DNA of 64,000 bases from Tepidiformaceae bacterium. Its GTDB lineage: Bacteria; Chloroflexota; Dehalococcoidia; Tepidiformales; Tepidiformaceae. A model generated the notes under the pieces. The model saw nothing but the letters and a program-made list of their open reading frames with translations. It ran no database searches and was not told the origin of the DNA. The stretch lies in the NCBI GenBank assembly GCA_958295975.1, contig OY282446.1:2271289-2335288 (forward strand), read 5' to 3'. Shown here in pieces: positions 37,522 through 43,940 of the stretch. The stretch's first letter is position 1; every line of letters starts with the position of its first letter. The position numbers and the translations under genes are program-made.

Positions 37522-38118
37522 TCAGAGGGCGCCCTTCGTGGAGGGCAGGCCCCCGGCGCGGCGGGGATCGATGCGCGTGGCCGCGTCGAGCGCGCGGGCG
37601 AGCGCCTTGAAGCACGCCTCCGCCTTGTGGTGGTCGTTCACGCCCGCGAGCGCACGCACGTGCAGGTTCGCGCCCAGCGCCACGGCGAACGATTCGAGGA
37701 AGTGCGCGGGCAGGTCGGCGGGCAGCTCGCCCAGCGTGCGCCCCAGCAGGCGCAGGTCGAGCTCGGCGTACGGCCGCCCGCCCAGGTCGACGGCGGCGAA
37801 GGCGAGCGCCTCGTCGAGGGGCATGTGCGCGGAGCCCGCGCGCACGATGCCGGCCTTGTCCCCCAGCGCCTCGCGGAAGGCCTGGCCCAGCGCCAGACCC
37901 GCGTCCTCCACGGTGTGGTGGGCGTCCACGTGCAGGTCGCCCTCCGCCGCGATCTCGAGGTCGAACACGCCGTGGCGGGCGATCTGGGCGAGCATGTGGT
38001 CGAGGAAGCCGATGCCGGTGGCCACCTCGAAGCGCCCGGCGCCGTCGAGGTCCACGGTGACGGCGATGGCCGTCTCCGCCGTCTCGCGCCTGACCGTCGC
38101 GCGCCGTCCCTCCGTCAC
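37522..38118 (-). CDS. hisB: Imidazoleglycerol-phosphate dehydratase
   Basis: Sixth step of histidine synthesis. 198 residues, GTG 38118 overlapping the hisC stop (GTGA). The two manganese-site motifs HHTVEDAGLALG and NDHHKAEACFKALARAL are intact, as is GIGFLDHMLAQIARHG. Monofunctional form without the phosphatase domain. Last gene of the his cluster in this window. Confidence 0.96.
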   Translation of the reverse strand: MTEGRRATVRRETAETAIAVTVDLDGAGRFEVATGIGFLDHMLAQIARHGVFDLEIAAEGDLHVDAHHTVEDAGLALGQAFREALGDKAGIVRAGSAHMPLDEALAFAAVDLGGRPYAELDLRLLGRTLGELPADLPAHFLESFAVALGANLHVRALAGVNDHHKAEACFKALARALDAATRIDPRRAGGLPSTKGAL

Positions 38119-39200
38119 GGCGCGACCTCGCGCAGGGCCGCGAGCAGGCGGTCGGTATCGCGCGGACGCCCGGCGCTGATGCGGAGCTTGCCGGCCAGGT
38201 CGGGGCGGTCGTAGCGGCGCACGAGCACGCCGCGGCGGCGCAGCCCGGCGGCCACGGCGGCGGCGTCGGCCCCGTGCACGTCGAAGAGCGCGAAATTGGC
38301 GTCGGAGGGATGGGGCGTGAGCCAGCCGAGCGCGCCCACCGCCGCCGCCATGCGCTCGCGCTCGGCCACGATGGCGCGCACCGAGGCGAACAGCTCGTCG
38401 CGGTGGTCGAGGGCCGCGCGCGCGGCGGCGTCGCCCGCGACGTTCACGTTGTAGGGCTGCTTGATGGCCATCATGCGCTCCACCAGCCCAGCGTGAGCGA
38501 CGGCGTAGCCCACGCGCAAGCCCGCCAGCCCCGCCCACTTGCTGAAGGTGCGCAGGATCACGAGGTTCCCGTGGCGCTCCAGCAGGGGCACGGCGCTCAC
38601 GCCCGCGAACTCGGCGTAGGCCTCGTCCACCACCACCAGCGCCTCCAGCGCGCACAGCGCCTCGATCTCGTCGAGGCTGGAGGCGTTGCCCGTGGGGTTG
38701 TTGGGGGAAGCGACGAACACGACGCCCGCGCCGTCCGCGACGGCCCCGCGCAGGCCCGCGAGGTCGAGCGCATGGCCCGCGCCGCGCGGCGCCTCGACGT
38801 GCCGCGCGCCCGCCACGGCGGCGAGGAAGCCGTACATGCCGAAGGTGGGCGTGGCCGAGGCCACGGCGCGCGGCGAGGCCAGCCGCAGCACGATGTCGAT
38901 GAGGTCGTCCGCGCCCGCGCCCGCCGCCACCTGCGCGGGGGAGACGCCGAGCCAGGCGGCGATGGCCGCGCGCAGGGCCGTCTGGTCGGGGTCGGGATAG
39001 ATGCGCGGGTCGGCGGCGGCGATGGCGTCGCGCACGGCGGGCGGCGCGGCGTACGGGTTCTCGTTGGCGTCGAGCTTCACCAATTCGGCCACGGGCACGC
39101 CGATCTCCTCCGCCAGCGCCGCCAGCGGTTTCACGGGGGCGTAGCGCGGCAGGCGGTCGGCGTCGGGGCGCAGGAAGCGGCGCGGGTCCACGGCGGGCAC
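38115..39200 (-). CDS. hisC: Histidinol-phosphate aminotransferase
   Basis: PLP enzyme of histidine synthesis, 361 residues, GTG 39200, one base after the hisD stop. ANENPYAAPPAV near the N-terminus, SPNNPTGN, DEAYAEF, the PLP-lysine motif FSKWAGLAGLRVGYA and the C-terminal RISAGRPRDTDRLLAAL are seen. Fold-type I aminotransferases are promiscuous, but the his neighbours settle the role. Confidence 0.96.
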   Translation of the reverse strand: MPAVDPRRFLRPDADRLPRYAPVKPLAALAEEIGVPVAELVKLDANENPYAAPPAVRDAIAAADPRIYPDPDQTALRAAIAAWLGVSPAQVAAGAGADDLIDIVLRLASPRAVASATPTFGMYGFLAAVAGARHVEAPRGAGHALDLAGLRGAVADGAGVVFVASPNNPTGNASSLDEIEALCALEALVVVDEAYAEFAGVSAVPLLERHGNLVILRTFSKWAGLAGLRVGYAVAHAGLVERMMAIKQPYNVNVAGDAAARAALDHRDELFASVRAIVAERERMAAAVGALGWLTPHPSDANFALFDVHGADAAAVAAGLRRRGVLVRRYDRPDLAGKLRISAGRPRDTDRLLAALREVAP

Positions 39201-39201
39201 G

Positions 39202-40527
39202 CTAGCGCCCGCGCAGGCGCCGTTCGACGGAGGCGGCGTGCCCGCCCAGCCCCTCGGCGCGGGCGATGACGCGGGCGGCCGCGGCCAGCTCCTCCACCTC
39301 CTCCGGGGGCACGTTCACGAGGCTCATGGTCTTGAGGAAGTCGCGCACGCCGAGGGGGGAGCTCCAGCGGGCGCTGCCGCCCGTGGGCATGGTGTGGCTG
39401 GGGCCGGCGGTGTAGTCGCCCACCGCCTCGGGCGAGCCCTCGCCGAGGAAGACGCCGCCCGCGTTCCGCACCTTCATCACCCAGGCGGTGGGGTTCTCCA
39501 CCACGAGGCAGAGGTGTTCGGGGGCGTACTCGTTGGCGAGCTCGATGGCGTGGTCGATGTCGTTCACGAGCACGCAGCCGCCGCGCGTCCCGATGGCCTC
39601 GGCGGCGATGCGGGCGCGTTCCAGCCCCCGCAGCTGGCGCGCGACGGCGGCGGCCACGCGCTCCGCCAGGCGGTGCGAGGGCGTGAGCAGGATGGGGCTG
39701 GCCAGGCGGTCGTGCTCCGCCTGCGCCAGCAGGTCGGCGGCCACCAGCTCCGCGTCGGCGCTCTCGTCGGCGACGATCATCGTCTCCGTGGGGCCGTAGA
39801 CGGCGTCGATACCGGTCTCGCCGAACACCTGCTTCTTGGCGAGCGTGACGAACAGGTTGCCCGGCCCGCACACCTTGTCCACGCGCGGAACCGTCTCCGT
39901 GCCCCACGCGAAGGCCGCCACGGCCTGCGCGCCGCCCATCTTGAAGACGCCGTCCACGCCCGCCAGTTCGGCGGCCACGAGCTTGACCGGCGGCACGGAG
40001 CCGTCGGGCAGGACGGGACCGGCCACGAACACCTCCTCGACGCCCGCCACGCGCGCGGGGATGGCGCACATGAGCACCGTGCTGGGCAGCGGCGCGGCGC
40101 TACCGGGCGCGTAGACGCCGGCGCGCTGGATGGGGCGCGTGATCTGCCCCAGCCCGTCCATCTGGAAATCGACGAACGCGCCCCGCAGCTGCCGCTCGTG
40201 GTAGGCGCGGATGCGGTCGGCGGCGAAGGTCAGCGCCTCGATCACCTCGGGTTCGACGGCGTCGCGCGCGGCGCGCAGCTCGTCGCCGGTGACGCGCAGC
40301 CCCTCGACGCGCGCGCCGTCGAGGCGCTCGTTGTAGTAGCGCACGGCGTTGTCGCCGTCCTCGCGCACGTCGCGCAGGATGCGGCGCACGGCCTCGTCCG
40401 GCTCGAGCTCCGCGCCGAACGCGCGGAACGTCGTCTCGCGCATGTCGAGGGGCAGGGCGTCCGCGTCGAGGGGGGCGCGCGCGAGGATCGTGCGGCGGCC
40501 CTCCTCCGCGTTCCTGATTATGCGCAC
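39202..40527 (-). CDS. hisD: Histidinol dehydrogenase
   Basis: Last two oxidations to histidine. 441 residues. GTG 40527 is chosen because GGATGAGG lies 2-9 nt before it and it gives the typical MRIIRNAEEGRR start. It begins 4 bases after the stop of the phospholipase-like gene. Motifs: YAPGGS-like YAPGSAAPLPSTV, GPGNLFVTLAKKQVFG, DLLAQAEHD, NEYAPEHLCLVVE, AGPSHTMPTGGSARWSSPL. In the first of these, AP replaces the common GG pair. Confidence 0.95.
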   Translation of the reverse strand: MRIIRNAEEGRRTILARAPLDADALPLDMRETTFRAFGAELEPDEAVRRILRDVREDGDNAVRYYNERLDGARVEGLRVTGDELRAARDAVEPEVIEALTFAADRIRAYHERQLRGAFVDFQMDGLGQITRPIQRAGVYAPGSAAPLPSTVLMCAIPARVAGVEEVFVAGPVLPDGSVPPVKLVAAELAGVDGVFKMGGAQAVAAFAWGTETVPRVDKVCGPGNLFVTLAKKQVFGETGIDAVYGPTETMIVADESADAELVAADLLAQAEHDRLASPILLTPSHRLAERVAAAVARQLRGLERARIAAEAIGTRGGCVLVNDIDHAIELANEYAPEHLCLVVENPTAWVMKVRNAGGVFLGEGSPEAVGDYTAGPSHTMPTGGSARWSSPLGVRDFLKTMSLVNVPPEEVEELAAAARVIARAEGLGGHAASVERRLRGR

Positions 40528-40531
40528 GGCC

Positions 40532-41287
40532 TCATCCGCATGCGAGGTACCTTTCCACGGCGACGGCGGCGGCGGCGGTCGAGCGTTCGAGGAAGCCGTC
40601 CACCTCGGCGCTGGTGACGTGGCCGATTGTCTCACCCAAGAGGTCGGGGAGCGAATCGAGGAAGGCGGCCAGCTCGCCCTCCTCCTCGACCCCGGCGCGG
40701 CGCAGGTGGTTGGCGATCATGGCGCGGGCGCGGTCCCAGTCCATGCCGCGCGCGGCGATGTCGCTGGCCACCCCCCGCCAGCGCTCCAGCGTGCCGCCGT
40801 CGATGAACCCGGCGTCGATGGCGGCGATGGTCCCGCCCAGCGCCTCGCAGAGGCGGGCGCGCAGGCGGGCGTCGCCGTGGGCGCGTTCCAGCTCGAACTG
40901 CAGGAGGCGGTCCATCACGTTCGCGCGCAGGCGTCCGCCCACGGCCTCGTGCGGGTGGAAGAAGCGGCGGTAGATCGTCGTTATGTACTGTTCGTCGAGC
41001 ACGAGGTGGGTGAGGTATCCGGCCACGAAGGCGCGCGTCTCCGCGTTCAGGCGCGCCGGATCGGCGAGCCGCGGGCGCGCCTCGAGGAAGCCCGCGACGG
41101 AGTCCTGATGCTCGAACACGCCCAGGTCGAAGAAGTGCGTCTCGCGCCGGTCCTCGCGCGTGATGACGCGCACGTCGGGGGCGGTGGCGCCCAGCAGGTA
41201 GGGCCCCGAGGCGGCGTCCAGCGCCCCTTCCGGCAGCGCCTCGCCGAGCCGCCGCGCGAGGATCATGTGCAGCGTGATGGGGGGCAT
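40532..41287 (-). CDS. Zinc-dependent phospholipase C-like protein embedded in the his operon
   Basis: 251 residues, ATG 41287 sharing one base with the hisG stop (TGATG); GGGGGAG lies 8 nt upstream. ITLHMILARRLGEAL at residues 4-18, then GPYLLGATAPDVR, REDRRETHFFD, FVAGYLTHLVLDEQY and MDRLLQFELER give the His/Asp-rich pattern of the Zn-dependent phospholipase C fold. In many bacteria this fold is a generic hydrolase-like protein. There is no signal peptide, so it is cytoplasmic. Its coupling to hisG upstream and hisD downstream suggests co-expression, but no histidine step is unassigned to it. Confidence 0.75.
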   Translation of the reverse strand: MPPITLHMILARRLGEALPEGALDAASGPYLLGATAPDVRVITREDRRETHFFDLGVFEHQDSVAGFLEARPRLADPARLNAETRAFVAGYLTHLVLDEQYITTIYRRFFHPHEAVGGRLRANVMDRLLQFELERAHGDARLRARLCEALGGTIAAIDAGFIDGGTLERWRGVASDIAARGMDWDRARAMIANHLRRAGVEEEGELAAFLDSLPDLLGETIGHVTSAEVDGFLERSTAAAAVAVERYLACG

Positions 41288-42732
41288 CAGGCGGCTCCCC
41301 CGCCCGCCGCCGCCCCCGCCGCGGAGGCGCGCACGCCCTCGCGCAGCCGCCCCAGCAGCTCCTCCAGCAGGTCGCGGCGGGTCGTGCGCGGACGCGCGCC
41401 CGTGAGCACGCAGTTCGTGGAATCGAGGTAGGGGTCGAGCATCCGCAGGCGGTTCACGCGCAGGCTCGTGCCCGTCTCCGTGCCCTCGATGAGGACGTCG
41501 GCGTCCTCGGGCACGAAGGCCTCGCTGGCGCCCGCGATGGGGATGATGGCGGCGTGCGGCAGGCGGTGCGCGCGTGCCCACTCCTCCGCCAGCCCGGGGA
41601 ACTCGCTGGCGATGCGCACGGGCCGCCCCAGCCGCGCCCAGACGGCCAGCGCCTCCCGCGTCGTGCGCGCGGGGAAATCCTCGTGCACCACGGGGCCGAT
41701 GCGGTAGCGGCTGCGGCCCAGGTCGAGCGCCATCTCCACGGGCGAGGCGGGGAAGGCGGCGAGGTGCTCGCGCAGCCGGTCCACGCCGCTCACGGCCACG
41801 TCGAACGCGCCCCTCGCCACGAGCCCGGGCATGTCCTGCGGGCGCACCACCTTCACCTCCACGCCCGCGACGGGCGAGCGCGGACGGCGGACGAATTCGC
41901 GCTCGCCGTAGCCCTCGAACTCCAGCCCGGCGGCGGTCAGGGCGGCGTGCGTGTGGCGCTGCGCGTGCCCGTCGGGCAGGGCCAGTCGCAGCACGTCCGT
42001 CGCGCGCTCCTCGCGCCGCGGGGGAACGCCGCCGGCGCGATCGGGCAGCGTGAGCGCGGCTTCGGTCCCGACGAAGGCGGGCGCGAGCCGGTCGAGCAGC
42101 GCGCCGCAATCGCGCGAGGCCAGCGAGGCCGCGCTGGCCACCACGGCCACGCCGCCGCGGAAGAGGCAATGCAGCGGAACCAGCCCCAGCGCCTCGACGG
42201 CGGCGGCGTCCCGCGCCGCCAGCACGACGAGGTCGGCGTCCTCGGGCGGATAGGCCTCGGCGGCCCCGTGCAGGTCGATCAGCGTGTAGCGCGGCAGGCG
42301 CAGGCGCGAGGCAAGGAGGTCGGCGAGGTTCGGCAGCTCCGTGGCCAGCCGCACGCCGTCGAGCGATGCGGGCGCGGGCGTCTCGCCGGGTGCCAGCCCC
42401 GCGGACGGCGCGGCGCAGAGCCACACCCCGGCGGCGGGGCCGGGCAGCGCCCCCAGACGCACGACCCGCTGGCCGGGGAAGCGCGCGCGCAGCTCCGCCA
42501 CCCACACGTCGCCGCAGATGCCGACGTCGTAGTTGCCGAGCGCCACCTGGATGGGGATGTCGCGCTCGCGGAAGACGCGGAAGCGGAAGCCGCGCCCGTC
42601 CGCGCCCGCGCGCAGCAGCCGCGAGCCGGACTCGTAGCCGTCCAGCGCCAGCCCGCGCGCGGCCAGCAGCTCGCCCAGCGGCCCGCGCAGGTCGCCCGTG
42701 GGCAGGGCGAGGCCGGGCGGCGGCCCGCTCAT
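41287..42732 (-). CDS. hisG: ATP phosphoribosyltransferase with two fused HisG domains
   Basis: First histidine-pathway enzyme. 481 residues, about twice the short-form HisG. ATG 42732 overlaps the hisZ stop. Domain 1 (about 6-215) has LALPTGDLRGPLGELL, FRERDIPIQVALGNYDVGICG and VRLATELPNLA. Domain 2 (about 245-450) repeats [28 protein letters not shown] and VRIASEFPGLA. It also keeps the PRPP loop EGTETGTSL (416-424). In domain 1 the equivalent stretch is LAARDAAAV, without the TGxTL residues, so only the second half looks catalytic. HisZ next door fits the short-type enzyme. Confidence 0.88.
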   Translation of the reverse strand: MSGPPPGLALPTGDLRGPLGELLAARGLALDGYESGSRLLRAGADGRGFRFRVFRERDIPIQVALGNYDVGICGDVWVAELRARFPGQRVVRLGALPGPAAGVWLCAAPSAGLAPGETPAPASLDGVRLATELPNLADLLASRLRLPRYTLIDLHGAAEAYPPEDADLVVLAARDAAAVEALGLVPLHCLFRGGVAVVASAASLASRDCGALLDRLAPAFVGTEAALTLPDRAGGVPPRREERATDVLRLALPDGHAQRHTHAALTAAGLEFEGYGEREFVRRPRSPVAGVEVKVVRPQDMPGLVARGAFDVAVSGVDRLREHLAAFPASPVEMALDLGRSRYRIGPVVHEDFPARTTREALAVWARLGRPVRIASEFPGLAEEWARAHRLPHAAIIPIAGASEAFVPEDADVLIEGTETGTSLRVNRLRMLDPYLDSTNCVLTGARPRTTRRDLLEELLGRLREGVRASAAGAAAGGGAA

Positions 42733-43940
42733 TTGCGCCGCAGCACGAGCTGCACCACCTCGTCGAGGGTGGCGCCGTCGAGCGACAGGCCGGGGCCCGC
42801 AACGGCGATGCCGTCGGGACCGGCGGTGAGACGGATGGCGGCGTCGCCCGCCTCGCCGAGGGCGGCGGCGATGCCGTGGCGGTGGAGCGCGTCCGCCAGC
42901 CGCAGCGCATCCGCCAGCCCGGCGCCGCGCTCGGCGGCCACGGCCACGGCGGCCCCGCGCCGGGGGGCGTCGCCCATGTGCGCGACGAGGCGGTCCATGT
43001 CGATGGCGAAGCCGCAGGAGCTGGCGGGCGCGCCCTCGCCCGCGGGACGGTAGCGCCCGCCCCGCGCCCAGGCCCCGCCCGCGCCCCGCATCTCCCACGT
43101 GACCCCCGAGTAGTACTCGAAATCGAGGGGCAGGGCGGGATCGATGGCGACCGCGTGGCCCACCTCGACGAGGGCCGCGGCCACCTCGCGCAGCTCCGCG
43201 AGGGGCGCGACCGCGTCCGGCAGGCCCGCGCGCGCGAGCGCGATGAGGTTGTCCGCGAAGGGCGGCCCGCCCGACCCGTCGAGGGCCGCGTCGAGGAAGG
43301 CGAGCGCCCGCGGACGCCCCGCGAGGGCCTCGCGCACGGCGGCCAGCCCGCCGCCCGCCACGTCGTCGAGCAGGGCGCGCCGCGCGAGCGCGTCGTCGAT
43401 GCCGGCGGCGGCGATGGCGGCGCGCGCCACGCCCGCGTGCGTGAGGCGCAGCTCGACGGGCAGGGCCAGCGTCCCGAACACCGCGGCCGCCACCGCCACC
43501 GCCTCGAGATCGCCGGCCACGGCGGGCGCGCCCAGGTACTCCAGGCCGCACTGCCACTCCTCGCCCTCCGCGCCGCGGAACACGCTCTGCACGTAGGCCA
43601 GCCGCGCGGGCAGGGGGATGCCCGCCTCGGCGGCGGCGCGGGCCACGGGGATGGTGGAGTCGTAGCGCAGCACCACCCGCTCGCCGCTCCAGCCGTCCCA
43701 GTCGAGGAAGGAGTAGACGCCCGCCAGCATCTCCGGCGTGAGCGCCCCGGCGGCGGTGAAGAGGCCGTAGCTCTCCACCGTGGGCGTGCGCAGCTCCTCG
43801 TAGCCCCAGCGCCGCGCGGCCTCGCGGAAGGCGTCCTCCACGCGGCGGAAGGCGCGCATGCGGTCGGGCAACAGATCGCGCATGCCGCGCGCGCGGGGCG
43901 CGAGGGGGGCGGCGACGACGGCGGCGACGGTCTCGCTCAT
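42729..43940 (-). CDS. hisZ: ATP phosphoribosyltransferase regulatory subunit
   Basis: HisS-like paralogue that activates short HisG and mediates histidine feedback. 403 residues, ATG 43940; TACACT ends 12 nt upstream, so the leader is only a few bases. The class II fold is visible (RGMRDLLPDRMRAFRRVED; LRYDSTIPVARAAAEAG in place of motif 2; YYSGVTWEMRG; CGFAIDMDRL). True HisRS signatures are degenerate, and the genetic context is hisG. First gene of the his operon. Confidence 0.9.
   Translation of the reverse strand: MSETVAAVVAAPLAPRARGMRDLLPDRMRAFRRVEDAFREAARRWGYEELRTPTVESYGLFTAAGALTPEMLAGVYSFLDWDGWSGERVVLRYDSTIPVARAAAEAGIPLPARLAYVQSVFRGAEGEEWQCGLEYLGAPAVAGDLEAVAVAAAVFGTLALPVELRLTHAGVARAAIAAAGIDDALARRALLDDVAGGGLAAVREALAGRPRALAFLDAALDGSGGPPFADNLIALARAGLPDAVAPLAELREVAAALVEVGHAVAIDPALPLDFEYYSGVTWEMRGAGGAWARGGRYRPAGEGAPASSCGFAIDMDRLVAHMGDAPRRGAAVAVAAERGAGLADALRLADALHRHGIAAALGEAGDAAIRLTAGPDGIAVAGPGLSLDGATLDEVVQLVLRRK

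Follow-up and report, generated by a model that had tools for sequence, protein, structure and literature searches.

A fused tandem HisG with complementary loss of active-site residues and a linked hisZ gene in Dehalococcoidia

The window analysed here, a stretch of 64,000 nucleotides from a Tepidiformaceae bacterium, carries on its minus strand a tandem hisG gene (41287-42732) that encodes two fused HisG domains in a single open frame of 481 aa. The N half (residues 1-222; 42067-42732) is a HisG domain without the PRPP loop, and the C half (residues 247-481; 41290-41994) is a HisG domain in which this loop is intact. The linker between the halves spans about residues 223-246 (41995-42066), its approximate limits being taken from the secondary structure of an AlphaFold2 model. 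Where the C half reads EGTETGTSL (residues 416-424; 41461-41487), the N half has the degenerate LAARDAAAV (residues 171-179; 42196-42222), and the loss of the PRPP loop from the first half, as claimed in a preliminary description of this DNA, is thereby confirmed. Two further sites, on the same strand as all the genes and features described here, are of importance for what follows: R38 in the N half (42619-42621), equivalent by alignment to Arg56 of Psychrobacter arcticus HisGS, a residue that acts in trans, and PDGH in the C half (residues 253-256; 41965-41976), which in this lineage takes the place of the canonical [PS]KGR motif.

The tandem gene lies within a his operon. Its start is overlapped by four bases by hisZ (42729-43940), encoding a regulatory HisRS-like subunit of 403 aa (PF13393, 135.8 bits), for which TIGR00443 is the best NCBIfam match, though below the cut-off of that model. 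A HisRS-like gene with a better match lies elsewhere in the genome, separate from hisZ, and is presumably hisS. The same operon contains hisD (39202-40530; PF00815, 494.7 bits) and hisC (38115-39200; PF00155, 174.8 bits), followed by hisB for imidazoleglycerol-phosphate dehydratase (37522-38121; PF00475, 198.8 bits), the true start of which may fall inside the stretch. Between hisG and hisD, a gene for a Zn-dependent phospholipase C-like protein of 251 aa (40532-41287) begins inside the hisG stop codon; its match to Zn_dep_PLPC is weak (23.1 bits, below the cut-off of 26.8). The proposed pairing of the double HisG with hisZ holds well beyond this locus, where hisZ, read from 43940 to 42729, adjoins hisG: a hisZ-like gene was found directly upstream of the tandem hisG in 50 of 50 evaluable loci.

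For family searches the two halves were cut in frame (N half 42732-42016, C half 42015-41287). Both match Pfam PF01634 above its curated cut-off of 25.5 bits, the N half with 42.7 and the C half with 80.8 bits, and by these matches the tandem chain is a member of the HisG family. The fused double HisG of the preliminary description, which had advised that residues 1-230 and 231-481 be compared separately with HisG models, is thus upheld. With NCBIfam TIGR00070 the C half scored 97.1 bits and the N half 63.4 bits, below the whole-protein cut-off of 75.75; for the chain as a whole, NCBIfam holds only the general hisG model. The two halves are the only HisG matches across the whole single-contig genome of 2.40 Mb, and the HisG_C domain (PF08029), the mark of the long-form enzyme, has no match in this genome (G000). 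The lack of HisG_C and the presence of hisZ agree with the short form of ATP phosphoribosyltransferase (ATPPRT). Instead of a separate, homodimerising single-domain chain of about 200-230 aa, a tandem of 481 aa is found, and the protein is therefore a variant rather than an ordinary member of the short form. Both the PRPP loop and the trans arginine occur in the chain, the former only through the C half and the latter only through the N half. The half-length hits L069, L071, L072 and L103 were considered as a separate second hisG or as a gene naturally split in two, and this was rejected: all of these extend to, or almost to, the end of a contig, and two of them, L069 and L071, belong to one assembly.

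In the HisZ-activated enzyme of P. arcticus, Arg56 of HisGS crosses the dimer interface and forms a salt bridge to the PRPP pyrophosphate in the site of the other subunit, and the R56A substitution lowered the activity of free HisGS (without HisZ) 42-fold (PMC9734150). Arg32 of the KGR motif, which is conserved in HisGS (PMC9734150), is a second pyrophosphate-stabilising arginine, and R73 contacts the gamma-phosphate of ATP (PMC10795190). P. arcticus HisGS, in a sequence that matches PDB 5M8H over all 231 residues, was used as the position ruler, and residues were counted over 54 distinct tandem proteins, of which 53 are untruncated and could be scored for the C-half loop. The PRPP-loop motif is absent from all N halves (0/54) and present in every scored C half (53/53). 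At position 56 the N halves have arginine in 52 and lysine in 2 of 54, while the C halves have arginine in 0/54 and lysine once. R73 and D94 are kept throughout the C halves (54/54 each) as against 33/54 and 17/54 of the N halves; the pocket positions E137, G160 and D76 are kept in both. Column entropies follow the same division, position 56 standing at the 9th percentile among the columns of N halves but at the 84th among those of C halves, and the loop columns 176-184 averaging 2.43 bits in N halves versus 0.89 bits in C halves.

Separate N and C profiles align without gaps to P. arcticus HisGS around position 56, so that this assignment is independent of any one alignment. In a PDB search, the N profile aligned its own Ser-Arg with the Ser-Arg of A. 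baumannii HisGS, and an R-P pair at positions 59-60, conserved in 50/54 C halves, anchors the alignment of the loop. R278, which phmmer placed opposite Arg56 for the C half of the window, was set aside as it is unconserved outside the genus; the C profile and the multiple alignment anchored on R-P put F280 there. The counts indicate that the N half may contribute to catalysis across a pseudo-dimer interface through R38. The preliminary description had attributed a structural or regulatory role to the first half on the ground of its lost loop; the loss stands, and the role itself reads as something more specific, a putative catalytic contribution in trans, given that R38 is kept and the C half is without the arginine.

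Arg32 does not follow this division. The C half has PDGH, with histidine at this position in 54/54 proteins, and the N half has arginine in only 20/54 and aspartate in the window. As Arg32 is replaced by histidine in all C halves, the chemistry may differ from that of P. arcticus. The KGR motif also varies among the other single HisG proteins aligned, e.g. KGS or KGH, and therefore PDGH weakens the identity of the chemistry but not the family membership. In one tandem group of 20 proteins (e.g. L029, L064 and L068), the N half has lost the loop and still keeps K30-G31-R32 in 20/20 and D94 in 17/20, which may reflect a remaining ligand or interface role. This is a larger set of residues than the donation of one arginine would call for, and it leaves room for an alternative in which the N half serves mainly as a regulatory sensor of ligands, non-catalytic itself, its old pocket binding a nucleotide or phosphate compound (e.g. 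AMP, ADP or a PRPP-like compound) and tuning the C half. The shared pocket positions would suit such a sensor. K30, R32 and D94 are nevertheless lost from the N half in the group of the window (34 proteins), R73 is lost from it in the other group, and the PRPP loop is gone from every N half counted. Nor does a sensor predict that Arg56 is kept by the N halves and lost from all C halves. A primarily regulatory N half is thus unlikely, and owes the small share of probability it retains to KGR and D94 in that one group.

AlphaFold2 prediction of the full chain from a 50-row alignment gave a pLDDT of 92.9 and a pTM of 0.89. In the VIA-align search with this model only matches to the C half were listed, among them HisG chains up to Z 23, and the N half was therefore folded and searched alone. 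The isolated N half was predicted with a pLDDT of 89.1 and a pTM of 0.87; its top PDB matches were all HisG chains (Z 17-20), and the next fold followed at about 10. Both halves thus have the HisG fold in the models, and the first half, for which a lack of this fold had been named as grounds for giving up the double-HisG reading, is predicted to adopt it with a best Z of 20. For residues 151-170 of the N half the prediction reached 94 in the full-chain model versus 72-80 in that of the half alone, suggesting that this conserved loop may pack against the C half. It may be asked whether the C halves of two chains form a true symmetric HisG dimer instead, with the N halves outside. The C half, with its PRPP loop, R73 and D94, is a recognisable HisG by itself and could be imagined in such a dimer, which would, however, be without any trans arginine; the pTM of the full chain also fits intramolecular packing. 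We regard this arrangement as very improbable.

The descent of the two halves was traced in a tree that combined 33 single HisG proteins with both halves of 36 tandem proteins. All N halves fall into one clade (SH-aLRT 100) and all C halves into another (98), and these clades are sisters (96). This topology points to a single duplication and fusion that preceded the radiation of the sampled lineages. An identical set of 22 proteins forms one clade among the N halves and one among the C halves (99 each), and the remaining 14 N halves form one clade (88). Over the same 36 proteins the subtree length is 28.0 for N halves versus 18.1 for C halves, indicating that the N half evolves faster. Faster change would be in keeping with an N half that is merely structural, a spacer for holding the C half and docking HisZ, and the linkage to hisZ wherever it could be judged is compatible with this as well. 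A spacer need not keep arginine or lysine at position 56 in 54/54 N halves while the C half drops its arginine, and this explanation appears a little less probable even than the ligand sensor.

Tandem HisG was searched for in further genomes with a profile built from 50 tandem proteins at a threshold of E ≤ 1e-40, which separates tandem from single HisG, since four single HisG proteins tested reached 1e-34 at best and over the C half only. It was found in 163 of 345 Dehalococcoidia genomes (at least 90% complete) and in 114 of 205 genera, nearly all matches being full-length. In a sample of 400 Chloroflexota genomes all 36 matches fell inside Dehalococcoidia, and none came from the about 346 sampled genomes of other classes. 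Samples of two other phyla gave no tandem match at 1e-45, a result obtained with no positive control within those phyla. In a scan of 84,980 species the named relatives were Chloroflexota, mostly titled Dehalococcoidia, and the matches from other phyla were single HisG proteins with open frames of about 310-420 aa. Tandem HisG is therefore a class-wide architecture of Dehalococcoidia and no local oddity. One tandem-bearing family has 8-42 reductive dehalogenase genes per genome of 1.4-2.1 Mb, which would fit Dehalococcoides and Dehalogenimonas. The same survey disposes of an artefact of sequencing, assembly or frame, since one and the same architecture recurs in one frame in the 163 genomes. 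Apart from the lost loop, nothing speaks for such an artefact or for a decaying duplicate; the carriers include finished single-contig genomes, the tandem gene is usually the sole hisG of its genome, and the probability of this explanation is negligible.

Other forms of HisG occur around the tandem one. Among the tandem genomes of a 60-genome sample, HisG_C was found in none except two that have a long HisG besides. These two, G017 and G023 (loci L093, L096, L011 and L008), belong to the family of the window and encode a tandem HisG with hisZ plus a separate long-form HisG with HisG_C; the double complement possibly represents stages of replacement, or else contamination, both assemblies being in many contigs. 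Members of this family without the tandem form mostly have a long HisG with HisG_C. In five Dehalococcoidia families (G038, G039, G040, G056 and G059), a hisZ-like gene adjoins a HisG with a weak HisG_C match (40-53 bits), for example at G056:C61:9271-11638, so that features of the long and short forms are combined; in a sixth family (G049) the HisG_C match is under the cut-off. Single HisG proteins of Acidobacteria and Deltaproteobacteria (L074, L077 and L081) resemble the tandem halves and, with open frames of about 310 aa or more, exceed the classic short HisG in length, and L077 and L081 share an E-YPPEDADL motif.

Compared with known systems, the tandem protein is closest in organisation to the short-form HisGS/HisZ enzymes (P. 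arcticus 5M8H, A. baumannii 8OY0, T. maritima 1USY and L. lactis 1Z7M), which likewise have a catalytic HisG domain with no regulatory domain at its C terminus, an adjacent hisZ, and the PRPP loop and trans arginine within the chain, here assigned to the C and N half, respectively. HisGS is a homodimer, whereas the tandem consists of two diverged, fused HisG domains that each miss one side of the site, and the [PS]KGR of HisGS contrasts with PDGH in the tandem C half. The catalytic fold is also shared with long-form HisG (E. coli 1H3D, M. tuberculosis 1NH8 and C. jejuni 4YB7), which carries HisG_C and replaces or accompanies the tandem in some members of the family of the window; the genome of the window has no HisG_C, and its regulation presumably proceeds through HisZ. 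HisZ itself, derived from HisRS and non-catalytic, offers a parallel within this complex, as a former enzyme copy that took on a regulatory role. It is, however, a separate chain of another fold, while the site-less HisG paralogue of the tandem is covalently attached. Within the literature searched, HisG in double, tandem or fused form is nowhere described, and the portion consulted of a 2007 review of his gene fusions, two Dehalococcoidetes genomes included, contains no hisG fusion (PMC1963479).

In a symmetric HisG dimer, the PRPP loop of one subunit and Arg56 of the other together form a site, so that there are two per dimer. In the tandem protein this homodimer would have turned into a covalent, asymmetric pseudo-dimer of the short-form enzyme. 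The C half would bind PRPP and ATP, and the N half, its own PRPP site lost, would present Arg38 across the interface and stabilise the departing pyrophosphate in the C-half site; the published trans assignment on which this composite site draws concerns Arg56 only. The mirror site, formed by a C-half arginine and the N-half loop, would be gone at both ends, which leaves one composite active site per chain. The C-half loop and the N-half arginine are kept and the reciprocal pair is lost, as would be expected if the fusion had fixed which halves pair and a single composite site was enough. We infer that the chain catalyses ATP + PRPP → PR-ATP + PPi, being usually the sole hisG and lying within a his operon. 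HisZ would provide activation and histidine inhibition, and from its linkage in all evaluable loci the holoenzyme is likely composed of a HisZ tetramer and two tandem chains, with two sites in all, versus HisZ4 with four HisG subunits (four sites) in the ordinary short form. Of the changes that the preliminary description had foreseen, stoichiometry would be altered in this way, and allostery may be altered as well. Taken as a whole, it is quite likely that the fused protein is an obligate pseudo-dimer, that each chain has one composite active site, and that it works with HisZ.

ATP phosphoribosyltransferase, the first enzyme in the synthesis of histidine, is known in two forms and is a standard example of allostery. 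With slightly less assurance, it is probable that the tandem protein represents a third beside the long and short ones, an obligate fused pseudo-dimer of two reciprocally degenerate HisG domains with a single composite site driven by HisZ. If so, about half of the genomes sampled from a bacterial class would rely on this third form, and the annotation that calls the whole chain a plain hisG would stand corrected. The way in which HisZ shifts Arg56 across the HisG dimer is a matter of current interest, and the tandem protein would split the partners of this contact into distinct domains, so that the arginine donor could be mutated with the PRPP-binding half untouched. With one site per catalytic unit in place of two coupled ones, the need of site-to-site coupling for HisZ activation and histidine feedback would become testable. 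The tandem HisG of Dehalococcoidia would then be a clear case of complementary degeneration following duplication and fusion, and would show, as a natural experiment, what happens when an allosteric enzyme loses its symmetry.
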